Shown: positions 46,454-48,240 of the stretch, in pieces
Layout of the letters: each line of letters starts with the position of its first letter
Position numbering within the stretch: position 1 is the first letter of the stretch
Source: Leifsonia sp. 71-9
Lineage (GTDB): Bacteria; Actinomycetota; Actinomycetes; Actinomycetales; Microbacteriaceae
Assembly (NCBI RefSeq): GCF_001898805.1
Contig: NZ_MKVJ01000014.1
Location: 104,410-168,409, forward strand
Reading direction: 5' to 3'
DNA length: 64,000 bases
Program-made: the position numbers and the translations under genes
Notes under the pieces: model-generated
The model's input: only the letters and a program-made list of their open reading frames with translations
What the model was told of the DNA's origin: nothing
The model's database searches: none

Positions 46454-47167
46454 ATGACAGCAGGGCACGGCGTGCACAGGCGCGCCATGATCGACCTCGC
46501 CGTCGTCCGCTCCACCGCAGCTGCACTCAGCGCCTCCCTCCACGACTCCACCGCCGATCTCCGCGCGGACGCGTACGGTCACGGGCTCATCCCTGTGGCA
46601 CGTGCGCTGTCCGCCGCGGGGGTCGGCGGTTTCGTCGTCTCCCGCGTCGAAGACGCCGCCGCGCTCGCGGATGACGGCATCGACACCCGCGTCACCGTCG
46701 GCGGGCCCGGTCCCGGCTCCGGTGCGCTGCTCGGACCGGCGCTCTTCGGCCTCGACCCGGTCACGCCGACCGCCCCCGCGATGCGTCTGACGGGCGAGAT
46801 CATCGCCGTCAAGCACGTGGAGGCCGACCGCGGCGTCTCGTACGGCTACACCTACCGCACCGCCCGGCCGACCACGCTCGTGCTCGTGGCGCTCGGCTAC
46901 GCCGACGGCATCCTCCGCGTGGCATCCAACAAGGCACCCGTGCAGGTCGGCGTGACGCGCGGCCGGGTGACCGGGCGGATCGCCATGGATCAGTTCGTCG
47001 TCGACATCGGCGACGGCGCTGCCTCCCCCGGCGACCCCGTGGTCCTGTTCGGCGACCCGGCCCGCGGCGAGCCGACCGTGCTCGACTGGGCGGACGCGAT
47101 CGGCGTCGCCGCCCCGGTCATCACCAGCCGGCTGGGCCGGCGCATCGAGAGGGTGCACAGCGCATGA
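46454..47167 (+). CDS. Truncated alanine-racemase-like subunit: keeps Tyr, lacks PLP lysine
   Basis: The 237-residue protein is about 120 residues shorter than a racemase. The first part matches the start of the barrel, but the PLP lysine of the KADAYGHG motif is Arg37 (LRADAYGHG, codon CGC). After one more barrel strand (FVVSRVEDAAAL) most of the barrel is missing. The C-terminal domain is complete and canonical: GVSYGYTYRT with the catalytic Tyr130, LGYADG and GRIAMDQFVVD. Alone it cannot bind PLP as a Schiff base. Its stop overlaps the start of the next racemase-like gene by 4 bp, so equal amounts are likely. Confidence 0.85.
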   Translation: MTAGHGVHRRAMIDLAVVRSTAAALSASLHDSTADLRADAYGHGLIPVARALSAAGVGGFVVSRVEDAAALADDGIDTRVTVGGPGPGSGALLGPALFGLDPVTPTAPAMRLTGEIIAVKHVEADRGVSYGYTYRTARPTTLVLVALGYADGILRVASNKAPVQVGVTRGRVTGRIAMDQFVVDIGDGAASPGDPVVLFGDPARGEPTVLDWADAIGVAAPVITSRLGRRIERVHSA

Positions 47168-48240
47168 CGATCGTCGACGCCATCGCCGAGCCGCTGCCGC
47201 GCGCCGTCATCGACCTCGCCGCCCTGCGACGCAACGTCGCCCGTCTCGCCGCGATCGCCGCGCCGGCGGAGGTCATGCTCGCCGTCAAGGCCGACGCCTA
47301 CGGGCACGGCCTGCTCCCCGTCGCCGAGGCCGGGCTGGAGGCGGGAGCCACCTCCCTCGCCGTGCTCGAGGTCCCAGCCGGACTCGTCCTGCGCCGCGCC
47401 GGTGTCACCGCTCCCCTCCTCGCCTGGCTGCACGGTCAGGACACCGATTGGCGCGCCGCCATCGAGAACGACATCGAGCTCGGCGTCTCCGCCCGCTGGC
47501 AGCTCGACGCGATCGCCGCGGCGGCCGCGGACCGTCCCGCCGTGGTCCACCTGAAGGTCGACACCGGGCTCAGCCGCAACGGCGCCACCCGCGCCGACTG
47601 GCCGGGGCTCGTGGATGCCGCTCTCGCGCTGCAGGACCGCGGCGTCGTGCGCGTCCGCGCCGCCTGGTCCCACCTCGCCGACGCCTCCCTCGAGGAGGAC
47701 CGTCGCGCTCTCGCCGAGTTCCACGAGGCGGTGGCCGAGGCGACCGACCGCGGCGCGCGCTTCGAGATCCTGCACCTCGCCGCCAGCTCGGCAGGGATGC
47801 GCATGCCCGAGGCCCGCTTCGACCTCGTCCGCTTCGGGATCGCCGCCTACGGCTTCTCCCCCTTCGACGACGCCACCGGCGCAGAACTCGGCCTCGAGCC
47901 CGTCATGCGCCTGGAGGCTCCCGTCACCGAGGTGCATGTGGACGGCACGACGCACGTCCGGATCGCGATCGGCTACGGCGACGGCGTCCCGACGCTCGGC
48001 ATCGCGAAGGTGTCCGTTCTGCTGGACGGCCGACGCTGCCCGGTCGTCGCGGTGGGCGTCGACTCGATGCTTGTGGACGCGGGCACCGCCCGCGTGCGCG
48101 CGGGCGACTCGGCCATCCTCTTCGGCCCGGGCGTCGACGGTGAGGCGACGGCGGAGACCTGGGCGGACTGGGCGGAGACCATCGCGGACGAGATGATCAC
48201 GGGCGTCGCCGCGCGGGTTCCGCGCGTCTACGTCGGCTAG
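47164..48240 (+). CDS. Alanine-racemase-like subunit: keeps PLP lysine, lacks catalytic Tyr segment
   Basis: The 358-residue protein has a complete barrel with Lys42 in AVKADAYGHG, HLKVDTGLSRNG and FDLVRFGIAAYG (PLP phosphate side). The C-terminal domain is abnormal. Between VTEVHVDG and the strand HVRIAIGYGDG about 13 residues are missing, and these normally carry VSYGxTY with the second catalytic base. The later GRxxMDQ motif reads AVGVDSML. As a homodimer it would lack the tyrosine base. The truncated protein encoded just upstream carries both missing parts. Many annotation pipelines would call it plain alr. Confidence 0.88.
   Translation: MTIVDAIAEPLPRAVIDLAALRRNVARLAAIAAPAEVMLAVKADAYGHGLLPVAEAGLEAGATSLAVLEVPAGLVLRRAGVTAPLLAWLHGQDTDWRAAIENDIELGVSARWQLDAIAAAAADRPAVVHLKVDTGLSRNGATRADWPGLVDAALALQDRGVVRVRAAWSHLADASLEEDRRALAEFHEAVAEATDRGARFEILHLAASSAGMRMPEARFDLVRFGIAAYGFSPFDDATGAELGLEPVMRLEAPVTEVHVDGTTHVRIAIGYGDGVPTLGIAKVSVLLDGRRCPVVAVGVDSMLVDAGTARVRAGDSAILFGPGVDGEATAETWADWAETIADEMITGVAARVPRVYVG

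Follow-up and report, generated by a model that had tools for sequence, protein, structure and literature searches.

Do two overlapping genes, each of which lacks a catalytic residue that the other keeps, encode two impaired proteins or one enzyme? The question is raised by positions 46454-48240 of a 64,000-nucleotide stretch of DNA from Leifsonia sp. 71-9 (contig NZ_MKVJ01000014.1), hereafter the window, in which two racemase-like genes, a short one (S) and a long one (L), lie in tandem on the forward strand. The evidence set out below makes it highly probable that S and L constitute an obligate heterodimeric fold-III pyridoxal 5′-phosphate (PLP)-dependent racemase with a single working active site. 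If this is true, the pair is the first obligate heterodimer in the alanine racemase family known to us, and a single enzyme, possibly with another substrate, can go unnoticed when its genes are annotated as a pair of "alanine racemases". Among the records listed by searches of the open-access literature in PubMed Central (PMC), there was no heterodimeric or split alanine racemase.

Architecture of the S and L proteins

The features of the pair are given below in the numbering of the window, with residue equivalences to the alanine racemase BsAlr. Row counts are those of the site table, in which the 84 S and 87 L rows include near-duplicates.

46454-47167, + strand: S, short racemase-like subunit of 237 residues, with a truncated barrel, no PLP lysine and an intact C-terminal domain
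46562-46564, + strand: codon of Arg37 of S, at the site of the PLP lysine (Lys39 of BsAlr), from translation and alignment
46841-46843, + strand: codon of Tyr130 of S, within VSYGYTY, equivalent to Tyr265 of BsAlr; tyrosine in 84/84 S rows, a count that follows by definition from this column being the one that defines the S class
46985-46987, + strand: codon of Met178 of S, within MDQ, equivalent to Met312 of BsAlr; methionine in 84/84 S rows
47164-47167, + strand: ATGA, overlap of the S stop and L start codons, 4 nt common to both open reading frames (ORFs)
47164-48240, + strand: L, long racemase-like subunit of 358 residues, with a complete barrel that includes the PLP lysine and a C-terminal domain without the catalytic tyrosine loop
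47287-47289, + strand: codon of Lys42 of L, the PLP lysine; lysine in 87/87 L rows, likewise by definition, as this column defines the L class
47923-47961, + strand: approximate site in L of the deleted VSYG tyrosine loop, from Pfam and alignment
48187-48189, + strand: codon of Asp342 of L, at the substrate-specificity position Tyr354 of BsAlr, from alignment

Pfam matched S to positions 1-80 of 220 of Ala_racemase_N and 1-126 of 127 of Ala_racemase_C. S is without the lysine of the PLP motif AVVKA(N/D)AYGHG, which is replaced by Arg37, and retains both Tyr130 within VSYGYTY and Met178-Asp179-Gln180. Arginine is frequent rather than invariant in its column, which comprises R 69, S 6, G 4, A 3, P 1 and one gap in the 84 aligned S rows. 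L, in turn, was matched over the whole of Ala_racemase_N (1-220 of 220), and its Ala_racemase_C match begins only at position 35 of 127. It carries the PLP-lysine motif with Lys42, and its sites equivalent to Lys39, Tyr43, Arg136, His166, Ser204, Arg219 and Gly221 are kept in the site table. The VSYG segment, and with it the same-chain tyrosine, is absent, and MDQ is replaced by V-D-S, in which the aspartate is retained. An earlier reading of the window, made without database searches (hereafter the sequence-only reading), had described the same residues kept and lost in either protein as well as a 4-bp overlap of the genes, and translation, alignment and Pfam bear it out on all of these points. 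Its further statement that S lacks most of the barrel holds for the window (80 of 220 positions) but not for some relatives, whose lysine-less partners have a barrel of near full length.

AlphaFold2 models of either chain alone yielded a predicted local distance difference test score (pLDDT) of 91.2 and a predicted template modelling score (pTM) of 0.86 for S, and of 92.5 and 0.90 for L. The S model was aligned with the alanine racemase (Alr) of S. coelicolor using VIA-align (Z 24.2, root-mean-square deviation 2.1, 232 residues), and the L model matched that of S. lavendulae (Z 46.4, root-mean-square deviation 1.5, 352 residues). From this match and the AlphaFold2 confidence, proper folding of S is predicted. 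Against the NCBIfam equivalog model TIGR00492 (cut-off 168 bits), S scored 121.3 bits, which is below the cut-off, and L scored 200 bits, which is above it, so that L is called an alanine racemase. We do not class the pair among the ordinary alanine racemases because L fails two defining features, namely the tyrosine and Tyr354; it would be expected to act as an alanine racemase whose two bases are divided over two gene products.

Co-occurrence of the genes and complementarity of the losses

The genus was taken as Leifsonia from named relatives, and judging by its named neighbours the window lies near Leifsonia aquatica; S is 92% identical in locus L062. S was present in 28/28 genus genomes at 67-100% identity, with L directly 3′ in all 28. 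The two genes overlap by 4 nt in 19/28 genomes and are separated by a gap of 10, 28 or 37 nt in the other nine. For five within-genus pairs, the ratio of nonsynonymous to synonymous substitution rates (dN/dS) was 0.15-0.28 for S and 0.09-0.25 for L, which indicates that both genes are under purifying selection.

The family sample comprised 398 Microbacteriaceae genomes with 85 genus codes and was searched with an S profile, which yielded at least 66 full-coverage S-type matches in at least 59/398 genomes (one of them, in G404, covers 203/231 positions). Among the matches listed, all 66 S-type genes adjoin an L-type gene, 54 according to coordinates and 12 in the loci read. Inspection of loci around L-type matches without a listed S added at least 23 further genomes in which the partner lacks the lysine and keeps the tyrosine. 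The pair, with S and L adjacent or, in three cases, fused into one chain, was found in at least 84/398 Microbacteriaceae genomes and at least 26/85 genus codes. Named carriers include Leifsonia, Pseudoclavibacter, Agreia, Pseudolysinimonas, Protaetiibacter, Homoserinimonas and Schumannella (the last two as metagenome-assembled genomes) and Microcella putealis, whose locus (L285) holds GatD, a tyrosine-bearing partner cut short in the locus and an L-type gene, plus another racemase. In the order sample, the S profile matched at E ≤ 1e-62 in 2/396 genomes, both Microbacteriaceae, and the second of these (L314) also holds an S-L pair. Within the plasmid collection, none of the 106 matching records covers 80% of S.

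The aligned racemase ORFs of loci L001-L334 were then classified by presence or absence of the PLP lysine (K) and the catalytic tyrosine (Y). After removal of identical sequences only, 323 distinct ORFs remained, of which 110 were K-Y+, 115 K+Y-, 98 K+Y+ and none K-Y-; as the loci had been chosen by S-like and L-like matches, these counts bear on pairing and not on frequency. A K+Y- neighbour on the same strand accompanied 109 of the 110 K-Y+ ORFs. The exception, L332, lies at a contig end, the same one as that of L227, where a cut L is visible. Conversely, 109 of the 115 K+Y- ORFs have a K-Y+ neighbour, and the remaining six comprise three S-L fusions (L206, L212 and L327), two ORFs at contig ends (L201 and L237) and that of L285, whose partner is visible but cut. 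Hence, no K+Y- ORF among the 115 stands without K-Y+, save in fusions or where the contig or the fetched stretch ends, and 0/225 split-type ORFs adjoin an intact racemase. The fusions are natural single chains on the minus strand (L206, 5425-7722; L212, 4960-7146; L327, an ORF of 832 codons) and occur in genomes G266 and G305, which come in addition to the 59 with a listed S, and in G257, which is among those 59. Complementary losses, pairing, conservation and fusions are thus plain from these data. The recurrence of both losses in 110 and 115 distinct ORFs of relatives, none of which lacks both residues, goes beyond coincidence.

The alternative that the genes are decaying duplicates, or the product of a frameshift or an assembly artefact, draws on the frequent decay of tandem duplicates and on G404, in which L is broken over two frames, a point that also speaks against a functional pair. 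It is refuted by the recurrence of the same architecture in at least 84 genomes, the low dN/dS values and the absence of any ORF lacking both residues, and we consider its probability negligible. A pseudogene pair was rejected on the latter two grounds.

Proposed shared active site

In alanine racemase, the two catalytic bases at each site, Lys39 and Tyr265′, are contributed by different subunits (PMC3485190, PMC3245724). In the proposed heterodimer, L would supply the barrel, Lys42 and the PLP-binding residues, and the C-terminal domain of S would supply the opposing base Tyr130 and its surrounding residues, as the second Alr subunit does. By homology, this domain in the place of the second subunit would restore Tyr265′, Tyr284′, Arg309′, Met312′ and Asp313′ at the L site. 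S would be unable to hold PLP via the missing lysine, and a homodimer of L would lack the tyrosine. We infer the physical S:L complex and its activity from this complementarity. The arrangement would have in common with the Alr homodimer (PF01168 + PF00842, TIGR00492) the fold, the PLP motif and the provision of two bases from two chains per site (PMC3485190, PMC3245724). It would differ in that each chain has one base, in that one site per dimer is expected instead of two, and in the aspartate that replaces Tyr354 in L.

A different division of labour would have L alone as the enzyme, the role of the tyrosine being taken by water or another acid/base, and S as a non-catalytic, prozyme-like regulator or stabiliser. 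The PLP-contacting residues checked are indeed kept in L, and catalytically dead activators exist: in trypanosomatid deoxyhypusine synthase, an impaired paralog is described as forming a complex with an inactive one (PMC3663545). A mere activator, though, would have no need of the tyrosine loop or of Met312, both of which are found in all K-Y+ rows (methionine in 84/84). Moreover, S keeps precisely what L has lost, and a second pair in Agreia, described below, repeats the pattern with other parentage, so that we regard a catalytically self-sufficient L as very unlikely. Deoxyhypusine synthase is nonetheless the nearest functional parallel to a shared S-L enzyme, as impaired and inactive paralogs act together in it (PMC3663545). 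It is another enzyme with another fold, and its activation is termed allosteric in that source, whereas the losses in S and L are complementary and concern a shared site.

Agreia genomes with two split pairs

All seven split-pair genomes of genus code g77 hold two split pairs each. This code corresponds to Agreia, as the coordinates in G216 are identical to those of the named Agreia bicolorata genome. Each of the seven encodes four Ala_racemase_C domains, of which two are full and belong to short K-Y+ proteins, and the other two begin at profile position 28-33 and belong to K+Y- proteins. The second pair, with L2 preceding S2, is found in loci L222, L223, L224, L226 and L310-L312. An intact racemase, with full barrel and full C-terminal domain in one gene, was found in none of the seven genomes, and none has a match above the cut-off to the D-amino acid transaminase model TIGR01121 (weak matches ≤64.4 bits). 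An eighth g77 genome, G388, carries two intact tandem racemases, and S is absent from it.

Peptidoglycan-bearing bacteria require D-alanine. Given this need and the lack of an intact racemase, a split pair must act as the alanine racemase in the split-pair Agreia genomes, unless an enzyme of another family makes D-alanine there. The second pair, which keeps Tyr354, presumably serves this purpose. These genomes amount to a genetic test in nature. The obligate pairing put forward in the sequence-only reading therefore withstands comparison across at least 26 genus codes, with lone K+Y- genes only at stretch ends, three fusions and seven genomes devoid of an intact racemase.

Origin of the split pairs

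Tandem intact racemases, Alr1 followed by Alr2, are present in Herbiconiux, Subtercola, Planctomonas and others. In a tree of the barrel domain, L and Alr2 form one clade (support of 100 in the Shimodaira-Hasegawa-like approximate likelihood-ratio test, SH-aLRT), and Agreia L2 shares a clade with 10 of the 13 Alr1 rows (97). One row entered as L in this tree (L186, 614-1495), situated on a flagged long branch, is in fact an S protein; the approximately unbiased (AU) test was performed with the right ORF. In a tree of the C-terminal domain, a single clade (97) unites 44 of the 46 S rows and has Alr1 and housekeeping racemases as its neighbours (93); L clusters with Alr2 (95), and Agreia S2 and the Alr2 of G388 are sisters (91). 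We read these trees as indicating that, in the main pair, an Alr1-like gene gave rise to S and Alr2 to L. They further suggest that in the second Agreia pair L2 derives from Alr1 and S2 from Alr2, which would imply a separate origin with reversed roles, a parentage also favoured because the gene order L2-S2 matches Alr1-Alr2.

Several features of the trees weigh against this derivation. In the C-terminal domain tree, the S rows of L213 and L238 (2/46) are long-branched and sit on the Alr2 side; L2, which also has a long branch, is placed by Agromyces housekeeping racemases (95), not by Alr1. In the barrel tree, intact Alr2 is nested inside L, so that repeated loss or regain of the tyrosine loop would be needed; a single L clade was not rejected (p-AU 0.122). 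Formation of intact Alr2 by re-fusion of a split pair was considered and rejected, as the Alr2 C-terminal domain groups with L, not S.

Stages of the proposed transition survive in extant genomes: both racemases are intact in the Alr1-Alr2 tandems; the lysine is lost with a barrel of near full length in L211, L215 and L220; the tyrosine is changed with the loop retained in L192 and L199; both halves are deleted in the window; and the halves are fused in the single chains described above. Such natural intermediates would show how subunits become mutually dependent.

Substrate

The specificity of alanine racemase for alanine is due to a narrow inner gate made up of Tyr265′ and Tyr354 (PMC3485190, PMC3245724). 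The position of Tyr354 in the 87 L rows is occupied by aspartate in 69 and glutamate in 15, with three gaps, so that it is acidic in 84/84 scorable rows. Elsewhere, it is aspartate in 20/20 Alr2 and tyrosine in 21/21 Alr1, 48/52 other intact racemases and 4/4 Agreia L2 rows. Among the 115 K+Y- ORFs, the counts are Asp 81, Glu 22, Tyr 7 and gap 5, and the Agreia L2 ORFs number seven. In lysine racemase, the corresponding residue is Thr391; in a docked model, it is in contact with the nitrogen of the D-Lys side chain (PMC3485190). Because the gatekeeper is replaced by Asp or Glu in L, a preference for a positively charged side chain is suggested, which gives the shift in substrate range surmised in the sequence-only reading a concrete basis. 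On balance, we favour 2,4-diaminobutyrate, ornithine or lysine as the preferred substrate, whereby the pair would provide group B peptidoglycan with its D-diamino acid and S and L would be candidate genes for that component of the cell wall.

Lysine and broad-specificity racemases (Lyr/Bar) likewise lack tyrosine at the Tyr354 position and have room for a larger substrate (PMC3485190), but they carry both bases in one chain and have Thr or Ala at a site that is Asp or Glu in L. PddB, a cofactor-independent 2,4-diaminobutyrate racemase of a homopolymer pathway, is an actinobacterial maker of the D-form (PMC8225329), yet it is PLP-independent and DapF-like, is not a cell wall gene and is unrelated to S and L. 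No named cell wall racemase for the group B D-diamino acid appeared among the records listed by searches of the open-access (PMC) literature. Peptidoglycan of type B2γ with diaminobutyrate is reported for Subtercola, as is L-diaminobutyrate connected to D-Orn for Agreia (PMC5945732), and both D- and L-diaminobutyrate are reported for Herbiconiux (PMC10011130). The cell wall types of these three genera fit a diamino-acid substrate. One observation tells against it as a general explanation: the named Plantibacter genome has a single racemase match and no L-type gene. Plantibacter is a diaminobutyrate-containing genus, so there must be at least one route other than the pair.

The pair could also be a real heterodimer that makes D-alanine like its parent, with the Asp or Glu being neutral, which rivals only the substrate step. 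That a split pair can be an alanine racemase is indicated by the second Agreia pair, in which Tyr354 is retained and which presumably provides D-alanine. For the main pair, we nevertheless deem this unlikely, if by no means far-fetched, given the acidic residue in all scorable L rows and all Alr2 set against the invariant tyrosine of Alr1, and given that many L genes adjoin MurT/GatD genes (see below). Furthermore, the host genome of the window already possesses two more intact racemase genes, on C10 and C21, away from the pair. These make the pair unnecessary for D-alanine there, which also counts against its being indispensable.

The acidic residue and the changed entryway would be compatible, too, with a fold-III PLP enzyme that is not a racemase, such as a decarboxylase or lyase acting on a diamino acid. 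Both racemase bases are kept, one per subunit, along with the equivalents of Arg136, His166 and Arg219 in L; L surpasses the NCBIfam cut-off for alanine racemase; and its nearest intact relatives, the Alr2 proteins, hold both bases in one chain, as ordinary racemases do. A non-racemase function is accordingly most improbable, even more so than catalysis by L alone.

The second intact racemase of the host genome (G000:C21:432361-433419, - strand) is divergent and carries the motif GIGYGLDH. Weak matches resembling it recur across other genus genomes; the protein was not among the query sequences of the searches.

Neighbouring MurT and GatD genes

Two genes on the opposite strand follow the pair in the window and may work with it:

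48282-48998, - strand: GatD-like protein with Ala for the glutaminase Cys (AIAGGWQ); start codon uncertain
48995-50269, - strand: MurT-like ligase without the Cys4 zinc ribbon

Both MurT and GatD adjoin the pair in 18/20 named S/L loci. Among first-type pair loci, both are present in 17/28 and MurT only in one more, and in Agreia the order is MurT-GatD-S-L on one strand. They occur in 0/4 second-pair Agreia loci and 0/7 tandem intact loci. The window genes are homologous to those of the MurT/GatD lipid II isoglutaminyl synthase and keep the P-loop lysine and the Asp of MurT and the His of GatD. They differ from it in that GatD lacks the nucleophile Cys and MurT the zinc ribbon cysteines. The nucleophile, Cys94 in S. 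aureus, is Ala in the window, and no Cys is present in 78/78 GatD rows, which include that of the window and count overlapping loci repeatedly. In S. aureus GatD, amidation in vitro is lost when Ser or Gly takes the place of this cysteine (PMC6113224). It is hypothesised that MurT/GatD of the window type would attach a D-diamino acid to the α-carboxyl of D-Glu in place of ammonia; a partnership with the S/L pair is possible.

Two findings detract from such a partnership. The MurT and GatD pair is not in the stretch covered in 11/28 first-type pair loci. Among 40 other genomes, one of which (G035) itself carries the pair, a GatD match was obtained in 33, of which 30 were read (L241-L270), and 25 of these 30 lack the Cys. 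With the loss so widespread in the family, absence of the Cys alone does not link GatD to the pair, and it was rejected as a marker of S/L because it is found in most of the other genomes read. The five exceptions keep the Cys and have a more distant MurT (33-36% identity). We read the loss as a common trait of Microbacteriaceae, and Cys-less GatD may mark group B peptidoglycan and an altered MurT/GatD reaction. As a separate observation, the MurT-like neighbour of one S/L pair (L218, 7552-9396, - strand) has six Cys and is nearer to the zinc-ribbon kind.

A wider scenario joins these strands and is offered tentatively, as one that may well not hold in full. A homodimer with a shared site would have become an obligate heterodimer at least twice in one family, with roles reversed and stages extant. 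The older pair would be the D-diamino-acid racemase of group B peptidoglycan, working with a MurT/GatD switched from amidation to attachment of the D-diamino acid to D-Glu, and the D-alanine of Agreia would come only from a split enzyme.

Elsewhere in the window, positions 43254-43878 hold seven imperfect repeats of ~106 nt, spaced 82-94 nt, with many palindromes around CCCGCAACAACTCAC. The array sits in the gap between two topoisomerase subunit-like genes.

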